NCBI RefSeq assembly: GCF_900107435.1
Contig: NZ_FNPZ01000002.1
Location: 574,979-638,978, forward strand
Direction: 5' to 3'
Source of the DNA: Herbiconiux ginsengi
Lineage (GTDB): Bacteria; Actinomycetota; Actinomycetes; Actinomycetales; Microbacteriaceae
Length of the DNA stretch: 64,000 nt
Below, one piece after another: positions 2,493-62,958 of this stretch. Position 1 is the first letter of the stretch; every line of letters starts with the position of its first letter. Made by a program: the position numbers and the translations under genes. Below the pieces are notes generated by a model, which worked only from the letters and a program-made list of their open reading frames with translations, was not told where the DNA came from and made no database searches.

Positions 2493-3098
2493 ATGAGCGA
2501 GGCATCCGACAGTGCACGATCCGGCGGCGCACCCTCCGACAGCGGCCGGCCCGACCGCTGGAGCAAGGCGACCGTCTTCCCTGACATGTGGGTGAATCCC
2601 GATGACGATCCGCGGAACGTGGGAGGGAGCAGCCCCGACGGAGAATTGGCGACACTGCAGGGCTTCCTGACCGACTACCGGCTGACGCTCCGGATGAAGT
2701 GCGAGGGACTCGATCCCGAGCAACAGGCCCGCCGCTCGGTGCCTCCCTCGACGATGTCGCTGCTCGGCCTGCTGCGTCATCTCGCCGAGGTGGAGCGCGA
2801 CTGGCAGAACTGGATCACCACGGGCGATCCGCTGCCGCGACTGTATGGCGACGACGACGCCGATTTCGACGGAGCCGTGGCCGATCAGGCGGTCGTCGAC
2901 GAAGCCTCTGTCGCGCTCGCCCGGGAGCAGGCCGCGACCGATGCGCTGCTGGCCGGGCATCCGGACCTCGGAGAACGGATCGGCCGCGAGGACATCGCCG
3001 TTCGGGAACTGCTGGTGCACCGCATCGAGGAATACGCCCGGCACTGCGGGCACGCCGACCTGCTGCGCGAGTGCATCGACGGCCGCGTCGGCCAATGA
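2493..3098 (+). CDS. DinB-like/DUF664 family protein
   Basis: This 201-residue protein has the DinB/DUF664 four-helix-bundle pattern. Metal-ligand histidines appear in the motifs LLRHLAEVERDW and HRIEEYARHCGHADLLRE, and an N-terminal tail of about 30 residues precedes the domain. Members in actinobacteria include mycothiol- and bacillithiol-dependent enzymes, but many have no known reaction. I prefer the second ATG (2493) because AGGAGG ends at 2483, which leaves a 9-base spacer. The upstream ATG at 2484 would directly abut the site. Confidence 0.82.
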   Translation: MSEASDSARSGGAPSDSGRPDRWSKATVFPDMWVNPDDDPRNVGGSSPDGELATLQGFLTDYRLTLRMKCEGLDPEQQARRSVPPSTMSLLGLLRHLAEVERDWQNWITTGDPLPRLYGDDDADFDGAVADQAVVDEASVALAREQAATDALLAGHPDLGERIGREDIAVRELLVHRIEEYARHCGHADLLRECIDGRVGQ

Positions 3099-3110
3099 CC
3101 CCGCCGCCCG

Positions 3111-4070
3111 TCAGCCTCCGGGCGTGAGCACGATCCGGTCGCCCGAGGTCGGCGCATCGGCCCAGGCCTGCTCCACGTGCTCGAGCGGGACGGCTCGCAC
3201 GGCGAGTGCGAACGCATCACCGCTCACGGCAGCGACCAGGGCCTCGAGCTCGGTGAGGATGTCGCGCGTCGACACCGAACCCTGACCGCTGCCGAGCAGC
3301 TGCAGCCGCGTGGCCCGGAGTGCAGCGGAAGGGATCGCGGAATCCGCGCCCGCGACTGAGCCGATCTGGATCCAGCTCAGCAGCCGATCGTCATCCGTCC
3401 GGTTCGGCACGATGGCGCGCAGGGCGCTGCTGGTGGGCTCGCCCCAGAGATAGTCGAGCACCACGTCGACGTCTCGACCCGCTTCGGCGAGCGCGGCGGC
3501 GACCGCGCGCTCGTCGGGGCCGTCGAGCGCGACCGTCACGTCGGCGCCGAGGCCGGCCAGTCGATCGGCCCCTCGCCCGACCGCAGTCACCCGGCCCGCA
3601 CCGAGGTGCCTCGCGACCTGGATCGCGAGCCGGCCCGCGTTGCCGGTGGCCCCGAGCACGAGCACGCTCTGTCCGGGCCGGAGATCGATGCGCCGACGAA
3701 GGGCCACCCACGACGACATCGCCGGGTTCATCGCGGCCGCGATCCGGATCGGATCGGCGCCGGCGGGCAGCACGACGCTCCGTCGGAGGTCGATGACGGT
3801 CTGCTCGGCCATCGAACCGAGCGCGGAATCCGATTGCACGAAGTACCGCAACTCACCATCGGCCGTGCGGGCTACGCCGTCGATCCCCGGCACGAGAGGC
3901 AGCTCGTCGGTGCTGGTGTAGTGGGAGCCGTTCGCCTGCGAGAGCACACGCGGATGCAGGCCCGCAGCGACGACCGGCACCACCTGCTCGTGCGCGCCGA
4001 TCTCGACGGGGAGCGGGAACGTCTCGAAGCGAGGCGCACGATCGAAGCGGGTGACGACGGCGGCTTTCAT
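3111..4070 (-). CDS. MDR-superfamily zinc-type alcohol dehydrogenase/quinone oxidoreductase
   Basis: This 319-residue medium-chain dehydrogenase/reductase has an N-terminal GroES-like fold and a C-terminal Rossmann domain. The NAD(P)H loop reads VLVLGATGNAGRLAIQVA. No zinc-ligand cysteines are present, so it is of the zinc-independent quinone-reductase type. The ATG at 4070 has a clear AAGGAG site. It is divergent from the MarR gene at 4143, and the shared promoter contains two MarR-type palindromes, so it is probably the regulator's target. The physiological substrate is unknown, and detoxification of a small electrophile or quinone is a reasonable guess. Confidence 0.8.
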   Translation of the reverse strand: MKAAVVTRFDRAPRFETFPLPVEIGAHEQVVPVVAAGLHPRVLSQANGSHYTSTDELPLVPGIDGVARTADGELRYFVQSDSALGSMAEQTVIDLRRSVVLPAGADPIRIAAAMNPAMSSWVALRRRIDLRPGQSVLVLGATGNAGRLAIQVARHLGAGRVTAVGRGADRLAGLGADVTVALDGPDERAVAAALAEAGRDVDVVLDYLWGEPTSSALRAIVPNRTDDDRLLSWIQIGSVAGADSAIPSAALRATRLQLLGSGQGSVSTRDILTELEALVAAVSGDAFALAVRAVPLEHVEQAWADAPTSGDRIVLTPGG

Positions 4071-4649: not shown

Positions 4650-5519
4650 TCAGCCCGACGCAGCCGAAGTCACCGGCTCGGCGGGCGCCGTCGCGAGTGC
4701 TTGCAGGCCGGTGACGCGCAAGAGGTCGAGCTTCGCCTCATCCGCACTCCCGGGCGTGACCGTGTAGACCACGATGCGCAGGTCGCCGCCCGGCACGGTG
4801 AGCACGTCGCAGTCGACCGTGATCGGCCCGACGGGTGTGCGCGTGATGGTCTTGCGGCTGGAGCGGTGCTCCGCCACGCGCGCCTCGGCCCAACGGCGCT
4901 CGAACTCGGGCGATTCGGCCCGCAGCCGGGCCACGAGCCGGGCGAGCGACGGGTCGCGGGGGTACCGGCCGACGGCCGTGCGCAGATCGGCCGCGAGATC
5001 GCTCGCGAAATCCTCCTCGTGCTGGGCGTCGTACTCGATCCCGCTGTGGCCCGAGGTGAAATGCCGCCAGACGAGGTTGCGTTCGATTCCGACGTAGCGC
5101 GACGGATCGCCGGTCAGCGCGGCCCAGAGCGGATTCCAGAGCAGGATGTCATGGGTCGTCGTGAACACCGCGATCGGCACATCGCCGAGGCGGTCGACGA
5201 TGCGCTGCACCCCGGGCGTGACGTGCTGCGGCACCACGCCCCGGGTCGGCGGGGCGACTCCGGCGACCCGGTAGAGATGATCGCGCTCGTCTTCGGTGAG
5301 GCGCAGGGCGAGCGCCAGTGCCCCGAGCAATTGAGGAGACGGATGCGTCGCCCGACCCTGCTCGAGCCGCACGATGTAGTCGACGCTCACCCCGGCGAGC
5401 GCGGCGAGCTCTTCGCGGCGGAGGCCGGCGGTGCGCCGTCCGGCACCGGCGGGCATGCCGACATCCGCCGGACCGACCCGGTCGCGCCAGGATCGCAGCA
5501 CGCTGGCGAATTCGCTCAT
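4650..5519 (-). CDS. XRE-family regulator with MmyB-like ligand-binding domain
   Basis: This 289-residue protein has an N-terminal helix-turn-helix (LRREELAALAGVSVDYIVRLEQGR, about residues 33-56). It is followed by the PAS-like MmyB ligand-binding domain, recognisable by ILLWNPLWAALTGD, the ERNLVW stretch and a closing DLRIVVYTVTPG. MmyB-type regulators bind a lipid-like ligand, and most control a neighbouring short-chain dehydrogenase. That is the case here, since an SDR gene starts 101 bases away in the opposite direction. The ATG at 5519 begins the conserved domain, and the frame upstream of it is shadow. Confidence 0.87.
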   Translation of the reverse strand: MSEFASVLRSWRDRVGPADVGMPAGAGRRTAGLRREELAALAGVSVDYIVRLEQGRATHPSPQLLGALALALRLTEDERDHLYRVAGVAPPTRGVVPQHVTPGVQRIVDRLGDVPIAVFTTTHDILLWNPLWAALTGDPSRYVGIERNLVWRHFTSGHSGIEYDAQHEEDFASDLAADLRTAVGRYPRDPSLARLVARLRAESPEFERRWAEARVAEHRSSRKTITRTPVGPITVDCDVLTVPGGDLRIVVYTVTPGSADEAKLDLLRVTGLQALATAPAEPVTSAASG

Positions 5520-5608
5520 GTCTCCATCCTGCTCCCCCGCCCTGGGCACAGAGTGGTACTCCTGGTCCCCCTGTCGAAGAATGCCTGGGCGATCCGCGTC
5601 GCCGCCCG

Positions 5609-5620
5609 CAGTCTGGACGC
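5609..5620 (+). promoter_or_regulatory. -10-like element, probable leaderless start of the SDR gene
   Basis: CAGTCT at 5609-5614 is followed by 6 bases and then the ATG at 5621. This matches the NANNNT-N6-start pattern seen at several genes in the window. No ribosome-binding site is visible. Confidence 0.35.
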
Positions 5621-6301
5621 ATGACAACGACACTCATCACCGGGGCCAACAAGAGCCTCGGCCTCGAAACCGCTCGACGCCTGATCGACGCCGGCCACAC
5701 CGTCTACGCCGGGATGCGCGACCCCGCGAAGGGCGACGAAGCGCGCGCTCTCGGCGCCCATGTCGTGCAGCTCGACGTCACCGACCAGGCGAGCGTCGAT
5801 GCGGCCTTCGCCGCTTTACCCGAACTCGACGTGCTCGTGAACAACGCGGGCATCCTCGGAACCTCGTTCGGGGTCGACGACCTCTCCGTCGACGCCATGG
5901 CGCACGTGTTCGACACCAACGTGCTCGGCATCGTGCGCGTCACCCAGGCAGCCCTCCCCCTGCTCGGCCGCTCGGCGCATCCGGTCATCGTCAACGTGGC
6001 GTCGGGTGTCGGCTGGCCGCGCTTCCTCAGCACGGAGGGCCGCGACGAGTTCCCGGTTCCCGCCATCCCGTACGCCTCCTCGAAGGCCGCCGTGATCGCA
6101 CTCACGGTGCAGTACGCGAAGAACCTGCCGTCGTTCCGGGTCAACGTGAGCGACCCGGGCTACACCGCCACCGACTTCAACCACCACGGCGGTCACCAGA
6201 CCGTGACGGAGGGGACGGATGCGACGGTGCGCCTCGCGCAGGTCGCTCCCGACGGGCCCACGGGAGAGTTCCACGACCGGTTCGGCCGCATCGACTACTG
6301 A
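5621..6301 (+). CDS. Short-chain dehydrogenase/reductase
   Basis: This 226-residue classical SDR has the cofactor loop TGANKSLG (residues 7-14), the NNAG motif, and the active-site pair in PYASSK. The glycine pattern TGxxxSLG departs slightly from the usual TGxxxGIG. The substrate is unknown. It is divergently paired with the MmyB-type regulator, an arrangement seen in many actinobacteria that implies direct control. The start is the ATG at 5621, since earlier frame extensions overlap the regulator gene. Confidence 0.87.
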   Translation: MTTTLITGANKSLGLETARRLIDAGHTVYAGMRDPAKGDEARALGAHVVQLDVTDQASVDAAFAALPELDVLVNNAGILGTSFGVDDLSVDAMAHVFDTNVLGIVRVTQAALPLLGRSAHPVIVNVASGVGWPRFLSTEGRDEFPVPAIPYASSKAAVIALTVQYAKNLPSFRVNVSDPGYTATDFNHHGGHQTVTEGTDATVRLAQVAPDGPTGEFHDRFGRIDY

Positions 6302-6427
6302 GCGGCACTCGTCACGTCGTCGACGGCCCGGCAGAGCAGCCCGAGTTCCGCGGTGTTGCTCTCTCACGTCGCAGCCGGGGCGTTCGGGCTCGTGCTGCTC
6401 GCTTGCCGCAGACATCTCGGACATGCC

Positions 6428-60357: not shown

Positions 60358-60789
60358 CTAATCGTCTTCGGTGACCAGACTCTGAACGATGAGGTCGAGC
60401 ACGGCCTCCCCGTATGCGTCTTCGGCGGTGAGCGCTTCGTAGCCACGCAGCGTGCCGCGGATGACCGCGCTCACCACGAAGAGCGGGTCTCCGCCGTCTC
60501 GGTCGACCGCGAGCGACCGGAAACCGTCACGCAGCAGCTCCCGCAGCTGGTCTTCGCGCGGTAGCCACAGCGTGTCGGAGACGTCGACCGAGTCGAGGGC
60601 CCATTCTGTGGTGCCGTTGAAGCCGATCAGCTGGCCGGACGGGAAATCGTGCACTTCGACGGTCATCTCGGCGACGGTGAACACGTCTCCGGCCGCCTCG
60701 GAGGTCTCGATGACGAAGCTGTCACCCGAGCGCGGGTGCCATCGGAGACCGGCGGTGCGGAGGGCGCGGGCGAGCTCGATGGAGATCAT
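60358..60789 (-). CDS. Conserved actinobacterial protein of unknown function
   Basis: This 143-residue acidic soluble protein starts MISIELARALRTAGLRWHP. It contains MTVEVHDFPSGQLIGFNGTTEWALDSV and WLPREDQLRELL. Very similar short proteins occur across Microbacteriaceae and Cellulomonadaceae, often named as pilus assembly protein CpaE without good reason, since no ATPase motif is present. There is no membrane segment. The start at 60789 has no clear ribosome-binding site. The gene lies 31 bases upstream of the aldo/keto reductase start, on the same strand. Confidence 0.75.
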   Translation of the reverse strand: MISIELARALRTAGLRWHPRSGDSFVIETSEAAGDVFTVAEMTVEVHDFPSGQLIGFNGTTEWALDSVDVSDTLWLPREDQLRELLRDGFRSLAVDRDGGDPLFVVSAVIRGTLRGYEALTAEDAYGEAVLDLIVQSLVTEDD

Positions 60790-60860
60790 CAGCCCATCAT
60801 TCCAGCGTTCGGTGCCCGGCACCGGGACGGATCGGCAGATCGTTGGCTAACGTGGAGGTA

Positions 60861-62312
60861 ATGGCTATCGAGCGACGGACCTTCCTGGCTGGGGCGATCT
60901 CGGCCGCCTCCCTCGCCGCGCTCGCGGCCTGCACCCCTCCCAAGCCGGTGCCGCCGACGGCGACCGTCACCACCACTCCGACCCCACCTTCTCTCGTGCC
61001 GCGCCCGGCGTCGTTCCTGCGGAGCGCGTGGGCCACCGATCCCTACTCGCTCGGGTCGTTCAGCATGACGCCTGTGGGCGCGACTCCGGCCGACCGGGCG
61101 GCGCTGCGCGACACCGTTGCGAGCCGGGTGTTCTTCGCCGGCGAAGCCACCTCGAGCGAGTTCCCCGGCACGGTGATCGGCGCCGATGCCTCCGGAACCG
61201 CAGTCGCCGATCGTGTCGCGGCGCTCGCCCGTCCCGACGATCGGATCGCCGTGATCGGCGCCGGGATGGCCGGCGCGACGGCCGCCCGGGCCCTGGCCGA
61301 CTCCGGATTCGACGTGGTGGTGATCGAGGCCCGCGACCGCGTCGGCGGCCGGATCGACACGCGGGAGGGCGGCGACTGGCCTTTCCCGGTGGAACTCGGT
61401 GCGGCATCCGTCTCCGGCGACACCCTCGACCAGCTGCTGCGGACGAACGCCGTCGGCACCATCTCGCTCGACGCGACGCGCGAGACCCGCACCCTCGACG
61501 GCGTGGTGGTGCCGCCGTCGACCGTCGGGCCGAACGCCGTCACCACCGCCGTCGACTGGGCCCGGGCGCAGCCGACCGACACCTCCCTCGCGAGCGCGCT
61601 CTCCGCATCCGGCGCGTCTGCCCTTTCTACGGCACCCGCGCCTGACGGCGTCTCGCCCAGCGACGAACTGACCCACTACCTCGAGACGGCGATCGCGAGC
61701 GAATACGGCGCGAACTCGTTCCGCCTCTCGGCCGGCTACGGTCTCGACCGCGCGGGCCTCGCGGCCGGTGGTTCGCTCGTGGTGGGCGGGCTCGAATCCG
61801 TGATCGAGAGCGCCCTCGACGACCTCGACGTGCTGCTGTCGAGCATCGTCATCCGGATCGCCTACGACGACGACGGCGTGAGCCTGCGGCTCGGCACCGG
61901 CGAATCGCTGTCGGTCGACCGGGTCGTGGTGACGGTGCCGATCGGCGTGCTGCAGGCGGGCACCATCGAGTTCGACCCCGCCCTGCCCGAGGCGACGACC
62001 ACCTCGATCGAGGCACTCGGTATGGGAACCCTCGAGCAGCTCTGGCTGCGCTTCGACGAGCCGTTCTGGTCGACCGATGCCACGGTGCTCTCGGTGGTCG
62101 ACGAGACCTCCGAGATCGCCGAGTGGATCAACCTGCTGCCGGCGACCGGTCAGCCGATCCTGGTGGGGCTGACGGCGGCCGAAGACGTGCCGGTGACGCT
62201 GAAGCAGAGCGACGACGAGTTCATCGAGGCGGCGCTGCGGACGCTCGTTCCGTTCGTCGACGAGTCGCTCTCGACCGCAACGCCCTCGCCGACCCCGACA
62301 ATCGTGCCCTGA
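60861..62312 (+). CDS. Exported flavin amine oxidase-like protein with permuted domain order
   Basis: This 483-residue protein has a twin-arginine-type lipoprotein signal (MAIERRTFLAG, then LAAC at about 21-24). Residues 55-122 (WATDPYSLGSFSM, then FFAGEATSSEFPGTVIGADASG) match what is normally the C-terminal end of flavin amine oxidases. The FAD Rossmann motif (VIGAGMAGATAARAL at 131-145, EARDRVGGR) comes after it, and the chain stops where that C-terminal segment would be expected. It is probably a membrane-anchored FAD oxidase of amines or amino acids. I chose the ATG with TAACGT 7 bases and GGAGG 2 bases upstream. Confidence 0.87.
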   Translation: MAIERRTFLAGAISAASLAALAACTPPKPVPPTATVTTTPTPPSLVPRPASFLRSAWATDPYSLGSFSMTPVGATPADRAALRDTVASRVFFAGEATSSEFPGTVIGADASGTAVADRVAALARPDDRIAVIGAGMAGATAARALADSGFDVVVIEARDRVGGRIDTREGGDWPFPVELGAASVSGDTLDQLLRTNAVGTISLDATRETRTLDGVVVPPSTVGPNAVTTAVDWARAQPTDTSLASALSASGASALSTAPAPDGVSPSDELTHYLETAIASEYGANSFRLSAGYGLDRAGLAAGGSLVVGGLESVIESALDDLDVLLSSIVIRIAYDDDGVSLRLGTGESLSVDRVVVTVPIGVLQAGTIEFDPALPEATTTSIEALGMGTLEQLWLRFDEPFWSTDATVLSVVDETSEIAEWINLLPATGQPILVGLTAAEDVPVTLKQSDDEFIEAALRTLVPFVDESLSTATPSPTPTIVP

Positions 62313-62958
62313 GTCGCGCGTCGGCGCGTTCGCTCAGCGGAAGGAGCGGATGCAATCGGCTGATCGCCACGAGACCTGCCTGGATTCCCGCGAACAGCCC
62401 GATCGCGATGCCGCAGTAGAGGGCGAACTCCCCCGGGCCGCTCACCTGGTCGGGGTCGAGGAAGAAGTAGGGGTACCAGCGCACGATCGACCCACGGATC
62501 AGCGTGAACACGCCCCAGACCACCGGGAAGACCAGCACGATCGCGGCTGTGCGCCAGGGGATGCGCACCCGGCCGACCCCGATGAACCAGTCGAGCACCA
62601 CGAACGCCGGTATCCAGAAATGCAGGATCTGGCTCGACCACGGCACGTCGATGCGGTAGTGGTGGCTCCCGGCCTGCGAGACGATCAACCCGAAGACGAT
62701 TCCCGACACGACGACGTAGGTCGTGACGATGGCGCGTACGCTCGCCAGGAACGGACCCATCCGGTGGCCCACCAGCAACAGGGCGCCGGAGGCGCCGAGC
62801 ACCACCACGTTCACCAGATTCGACTGGAACGTGAAATAGCTGAAGTAGTTGATGGTGGAGAAGGTGCTGAAACCGAGCACGTAGTCGAAGTCGAAGATCA
62901 GGGCGATGGCGCCCAGCACGCCGACCGCGAGGCGCACGAGACCGAAAGCACGTCGCAC
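62221..62958 (-). CDS. Pr6Pr-type membrane protein
   Basis: This 245-residue protein has six membrane helices and the loop motif TINYFSYFTFQSNLVNVVV together with SHHYRIDVPWSSQILHFWIP and WYPYFFLDP. These match the Pr6Pr (FAR-17a/AIG1-like) family of bacterial membrane proteins of unknown function. The start is a GTG at 62958 with a GGAG about 8 bases away. The basic C-terminal 28 residues are encoded opposite the last 92 bases of the amine oxidase gene, an unusually long convergent overlap. Confidence 0.83.
   Translation of the reverse strand: MRRAFGLVRLAVGVLGAIALIFDFDYVLGFSTFSTINYFSYFTFQSNLVNVVVLGASGALLLVGHRMGPFLASVRAIVTTYVVVSGIVFGLIVSQAGSHHYRIDVPWSSQILHFWIPAFVVLDWFIGVGRVRIPWRTAAIVLVFPVVWGVFTLIRGSIVRWYPYFFLDPDQVSGPGEFALYCGIAIGLFAGIQAGLVAISRLHPLLPLSERADARLRARLSGSARALRSRATRRRTERASAAPPR

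Follow-up and report, generated by a model that had tools for sequence, protein, structure and literature searches.

A predicted circularly permuted, exported flavin amine oxidase-like protein of Herbiconiux ginsengi and its relatives among the actinobacteria

A gene for a flavin amine oxidase-like protein with rearranged segments was analyzed in a 64,000-nucleotide stretch of the Herbiconiux ginsengi genome (contig NZ_FNPZ01000002.1, positions 574,979 to 638,978), referred to here as the window. The open reading frame (ORF) spans 60861–62312 on the forward strand and encodes 483 amino acids. Judged from its sequence, the product is almost certainly circularly permuted, and it very probably adopts the flavin adenine dinucleotide (FAD)-binding amine oxidase fold. 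Taken as a whole, the gene is best explained by a natural circular permutation of a polyamine oxidase/LSD-type flavin amine oxidase that is probably exported and altered in its chemistry, an explanation we consider likely. That the protein is a redox enzyme acting on an amine-like substrate is only slightly favored over the reverse.

Flavin amine oxidases of family PF01593 carry an FAD-binding Rossmann segment (N), a middle or substrate-domain segment (M) and a C-terminal segment (C), in the order N-M-C. The 483-residue protein matched PF01593 at 190.8 bits (cut-off 19.8) in three separate stretches that were out of order on the DNA, with 60990–61217 corresponding to profile positions 367–442, 61266–61433 to positions 1–53 and 61713–62276 to positions 175–367. 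Comparison with human LSD2 by phmmer resulted in the same arrangement, as residues 698–775 of the LSD2 chain aligned with residues 44–121 of the query, 338–375 with 128–165 and 521–629 with 299–407. The order of the segments in the window protein is therefore C-N-M. This bears out the original prediction, made from the sequence of the window, which placed a C-terminal-type segment first and whose residue ranges were correct to within a few residues. PF01593 was matched at E 1e-5 by 27 of the 27 members of the aligned permuted set A1 (the rows of the alignments used here are not independent of one another). In NCBIfam the window protein gave sub-cut-off matches only, and these were confined to the Rossmann part.

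Read from its start, the protein consists of a predicted twin-arginine translocation (Tat)-type lipoprotein signal (residues 1–24, 60861–60932), a Pro/Thr-rich linker (residues 25–45, 60933–60995), the front-placed C-terminal-type segment with the motifs W-x-DP, FFAGEAT and GTVxGAxxSG (residues 46–122, 60996–61226), a new joint (residues 123–127, 61227–61241), the Rossmann segment with GAGMAG at 133–138, E156 and GGR at 162–164 (residues 128–200, 61242–61460), the middle segment (residues 201–467, 61461–62261) and a variable tail (residues 468–483, 62262–62309), all on the forward strand. The tail is indeed rich in Pro and Thr, as had been predicted; the predicted local distance difference test score of the structure model falls below 50 at residues 473–477 and 481–483, and the tail lies opposite the 3' end of a convergent gene of the Pr6Pr family. 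The model was confident overall, with low confidence up to about residue 40, and shows the flavin amine oxidase fold. A helix at residues 105–122 is followed in the model by a strand at 128–132. The old C-terminal segment, comprising a strand, the FAD-contacting GEAT loop and the last helix, now stands ahead of the first Rossmann strand across a joint of about five residues. The whole would form one FAD-binding folding unit with the moved segment in its usual place, with which the model is consistent. In Rossmann-type folds the helix after a strand runs back toward the start of the first strand, which would account for a joint this short being workable. The length of the joint is constrained, with 17–23 residues (quartiles 20–20) between Gly112 of the old C-terminal helix and Gly133 of the GxGxxG motif in 67 permuted proteins.

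The order of segments at homologous loci was established using the C, N and M pieces of several homologues. This resulted in 70 loci with the order C-N-M and 46 with N-M-C (duplicates counted). Canonical genes have their C piece after the M piece, at the site that corresponds to both termini of the permuted proteins. By sequence, these new ends lie in the loop that joins the last middle-segment helix to the W-x-DP strand, a stretch that measures 12–19 residues from the equivalent of residue 462 to that of Trp57 in canonical proteins (n = 45). Both kinds of gene occur together in some genomes, for example G078, G142, G258 and G296. One of the canonical genes, at L098, is split over two frames.

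The permuted gene was present in at least 133 of 398 genomes of the same family, 129 of these being recognized by a single alignment (from query residue 5 or lower to 366 or higher) and 4 as partial or split matches (G221, G330, G364 and G371); the matches listed end near E 8e-31 and weaker permuted genes may be absent from this count. Of the 11 genomes listed for the window's genus, 8 carry it. Sampling of 396 genomes from the phylum brought 6 outside the family (G585, G488, G715, G540, G559 and G739, the last with a partial or degraded copy), and sampling of 296 from the class brought 10 (G1023, G823, G920, G983, G1015, G991, G855, G1008, G1026 and G932), the two samples overlapping each other and both including genomes of the family. 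The homologue survey that had been proposed along with the original prediction thus found the same order well beyond one gene, and the permuted gene is a lineage across the actinobacteria. A genome scan with the single protein, which covered occurrence beyond the phylum and is sensitive to close relatives only, returned 13 loci, of which 8 were permuted, 2 canonical (L017 and L018) and 3 short matches. The nearest named matches to the protein were from the Corynebacterium-like bacterium B27, followed by two Herbiconiux records. Plasmids gave no match at E 1e-20. At L071 the permuted gene is broken between its C and N pieces, the C piece being in another frame and read-through hitting a stop.

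Selection on the gene was evaluated from the ratio of nonsynonymous to synonymous substitution rates (dN/dS), which for the window gene was about 0.11, 0.19, 0.27 and 0.31 against L023, L009, L010 and L024, respectively. For the moved segment, in whose alignment positions may shift by a few codons, dN/dS was about 0.05–0.24, and the segment is therefore under selection like the rest of the gene. Profile order, homologues of both orders, matching breakpoints, low dN/dS (about 0.11–0.31 in the four pairs) and a confident model together support the circular permutation that had been proposed.

The residues that contact FAD are complete in the window protein (G133, G135 and G138 of GxGxxG, E156, G163 and R164 of GGR, and G94 and E95 of GE). 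G133, G135, G138, G163 and R164 were found in every permuted and canonical row and E156 in all but one. In the column of the flavin-facing lysine, where the lysine of LSD2 aligns with the Gln of GTLEQLWLRF, the window protein has Gln393 (62037–62039, forward strand). Lysine occupied this column in 45 of 45 canonical rows, which holds for a set chosen by similarity to the query and not at random, and was absent in 33 of the 67 permuted proteins. Among the permuted groups, named from a quick tree on which A is the window's branch, it was kept in all rows of A0 (3/3), B (7/7) and C (2/2) and in 7 of 8 rows of D, and was lost in the window's genus and in 32 of the 47 group A rows. One permuted relative that has the lysine is L016. 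At residue 67, Tyr was present in 39 of the 45 canonical rows and 20 of 20 rows of A0, B, C and D together; among the 47 group A rows only 3 had it, Phe being the commonest residue. According to the papers concerned, the flavin-facing lysine is strictly conserved among the polyamine oxidases compared (PMC7576179), its change to Met in the maize enzyme led to a 1400-fold loss of flavin reduction and LSD1 K661A loses activity (both PMC3184146), and the position is tied to oxidase versus dehydrogenase behavior (PMC12272882). As the FAD-binding residues are kept and the lysine is gone, the window protein probably binds FAD without retaining ordinary oxidase chemistry. Proteins that lack the lysine probably react differently with oxygen or follow a different chemistry altogether, and an electron acceptor other than oxygen is a reasonable guess. 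The original prediction of a flavin amine oxidase thus holds as regards the permutation, while an active oxidase should not be assumed given that Gln393 replaces the lysine.

The gene may also have lost oxidase chemistry in much of the family and encode flavin-binding proteins other than oxidases, such as dehydrogenases or structural or sensory flavoproteins. This alternative overlaps with the best explanation and we place it a little below an even chance. It is favored by Gln393 and by the loss in most group A rows of the lysine next to FAD-binding residues that are near invariant, as well as by the tree, on which at least eight changes between lysine and another residue were counted over 52 permuted rows. 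The related NicA2 and Pnao are moreover dehydrogenases, as described in PMC12272882 and PMC9396064. Against it, the reconstructed dehydrogenase discussed in the former retains the lysine, so that dehydrogenases are not known to be marked by loss of this residue, and 15 of the 47 group A rows still have it.

The Rossmann and middle segments of the permuted protein agree in sequence and fold with those of the polyamine oxidase/LSD type (PF01593; LSD1, LSD2, spermine oxidase and maize polyamine oxidase), and the GEAT/W-x-DP segment and the FAD residues are likewise shared. The protein differs in the C-N-M order, the Tat-type lipoprotein signal and the Gln at the lysine position. Its length leaves no room for the tower and SWIRM domains of LSD1. 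Canonical Tat-lipoprotein-like homologues from the same phylum (L061, L018 and L084–L086) are of the same family and carry twin arginines and a lipobox, but have the order N-M-C and keep the lysine. NicA2/Pnao-type flavin amine dehydrogenases belong to the amine oxidase superfamily and use an acceptor other than oxygen, in their case with a cytochrome c partner, whereas none was identified for the window protein; the part of PMC12272882 that describes them mentions no permutation. MalS, also an exported enzyme of bacteria, is naturally permuted as well but is an unrelated glycoside hydrolase (PMC10223318). No permuted flavin amine oxidase was reported among the papers listed in searches of the open-licence literature.

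The N-terminus of the window protein, RRTFLAG...LAAC, combines twin arginines with a lipobox cysteine, and R5, R6 and C24 were invariant in 27 of 27 A1 rows. The Tat export and lipid anchoring that had been predicted therefore have their signal in the sequence, from which their support derives. By a loose pattern, a Tat signal with lipobox was found in 59 of 67 permuted versus 7 of 45 canonical rows; the pattern errs in both directions, since some passes (at least L059, L105 and L106) sit in upstream sequence and the canonical L082, L083, L088 and L110 fail it yet resemble Tat lipoproteins by eye. Seven of the 8 permuted rows that failed have twin arginines and a signal-peptidase-I-like site by eye, and the remaining one, L123, has no signal visible in the stretch inspected. 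Most group D rows likewise show a Tat signal with a signal-peptidase-I-like site by eye. The permuted proteins thus nearly all look exported and the canonical ones mixed. The window protein is probably exported already folded around FAD, through the Tat route, and then anchored outside the cell membrane via its new N-terminus, where it would probably oxidize an amine or similar small molecule.

The permutation likely goes back to an actinobacterial ancestor in which the gene was duplicated in tandem, the copies fused and their outer ends were lost. At L018 (Mycobacterium bohemicum) two canonical amine oxidase genes stand in tandem at 2550–3632 and 5088–6335, a layout that could give rise to a permutation through duplication, fusion and loss of ends. 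Two relatives of canonical order, L061 and L059, come from genus g74 in this family, L061 with a Tat-lipoprotein-like signal, and may be guides to what the ancestor was like before the permutation.

Several observations weigh against the explanation given above. The model blocks at residues 181–200 and 291–310, which lie within the fold, reached means of only 63–76. Structural alignment, performed using an aligner that keeps sequence order, covered residues 125–472 only, with the moved segment at 46–122 outside, and the docking of that segment on the flavin, on which the original prediction had also hinged, was approached indirectly. Apart from Pr6Pr in one family, no neighboring gene is common to the lineages, and there is therefore no genomic hint at a substrate. 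The quick tree, built from 91 reordered rows (52 permuted and 39 canonical), requires the order to change four times, so that several origins are possible. In this tree 26 of 88 inner branches were poorly supported, and forcing all 52 permuted rows into one clade cost 11.6 log-likelihood units and was not rejected (approximately unbiased test, p-AU 0.275). Given the matching breakpoints, one origin seems likelier than several. Finally, in each of the 14 permuted proteins tested, the C part and the N-M part had their best canonical hits at separate loci, as would be expected of a chimera in which the N-terminal segment was fused from a different amine oxidase gene. We regard such a fusion as improbable. 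At about 80 residues the C segment is short, its best scores are near ties, and the canonical L081, L082 and L059/L061 were recurrent among the five best matches for both parts. Pairwise distances of the C and N-M parts correlated in the permuted rows (r 0.74, 52 rows) as in the canonical (r 0.82, 39 rows), though this cannot separate an old fusion from a permutation. No part is duplicated or missing, which matches what circular permutation predicts.

That the arrangement is an assembly artefact or a pseudogene can be dismissed, since for the one broken copy at L071 there are 133 of 398 genomes with the common order and low dN/dS in four pairs. Assembly error, against which the original prediction had cautioned, is refuted by the recurrence of the order in many separate assemblies. 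The second C-terminal GEATS-type segment that it had also named was not found on the coding strand among the 57 permuted loci searched, later-added loci being outside that search, and the permutation stands.

Flavin amine oxidases are a large and well-studied family, which makes a permuted branch notable and a natural test case for rewiring an enzyme that still folds. With breakpoints that match across several actinobacterial families, and canonical relatives present alongside it in some genomes, the permutation amounts to a natural experiment on the order of folding, the position of the tether and the export of a folded flavoprotein via Tat. The repeated change of the lysine within the permuted lineage in turn provides a natural series for the question of oxidase versus dehydrogenase.

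Downstream of the permuted gene lies a convergent gene for a 245-residue membrane protein of the Pr6Pr family (62221–62958, reverse strand; NF038065 at 126.4 bits, cut-off 30), whose ORF overlaps that of the oxidase by 92 bases. No Pfam match was obtained for it at E 10, nor a consistent Pfam family, and no solved-structure relative at E 1; no paper with the word Pr6Pr was found in the open-licence literature. In 124 of the 133 family genomes that carry the permuted gene, a Pr6Pr match runs convergently toward it near its 3' end and within 2.5 kb. In G044, G176 and G299 the pairing is interrupted by a contig edge or the partner is on another contig, in G331 the genes are about 15 kb apart, and the remaining 5 exceptions (G038, G289, G206, G251 and G363) are group B genomes. 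The flanks covered at loci of groups A0, B, C and D, from less than 1 kb up to about 6.5 kb long, gave no Pr6Pr match at E 1e-4. At E 1e-15, homologues of Pr6Pr occurred in 329 of 398 genomes, some with extra copies, and the link therefore concerns the best-matching group only.

The pairing may reflect no more than 3' ends that overlap or abut and are hard to separate, a reading without functional link to which we give nearly even weight. The two matches overlap in 60 of 124 pairs, with a median gap of 4.5 bases and a largest of 1,141 as measured between match ends without regard to intervening genes. Convergent genes are moreover not co-transcribed and adjacency alone can cause joint loss. 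On the other hand, the matches are at least 150 bases apart in 29 of 124 pairs. A Pr6Pr match of E 2.5e-38 or better without the permuted gene was found in only two genomes (G090 and G029), with a cut that was set after viewing the list and below which scores continue without a gap. Of the neighbors on the other side (window 59496 and 60358), neither stays next to the permuted gene outside the genus in the 37 loci compared. A more specific proposal, in which the membrane tether of an old permuted amine oxidase was transferred from the end with the Rossmann segment to the middle–C hinge, the oxygen-activating lysine was then lost repeatedly in this family and the two genes together form a membrane redox module whose acceptor is not oxygen, appears doubtful.

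In the other permuted lineages the largest shared neighbor cluster, beyond the oxidase, its reading-frame shadows and Pr6Pr, comprised 3 of 23 loci. On the upstream side of the window gene, 60358–60822 (reverse strand) encodes a 154-residue protein with no Pfam or NCBIfam match. In the Pr6Pr protein, Thr43, His113, Trp161-Tyr-Pro-Tyr164 and Asp168 were invariant in 31 of 31 aligned orthologues, and the invariant Thr43 and His113 may resemble those of AIG1/ADTRP hydrolases.
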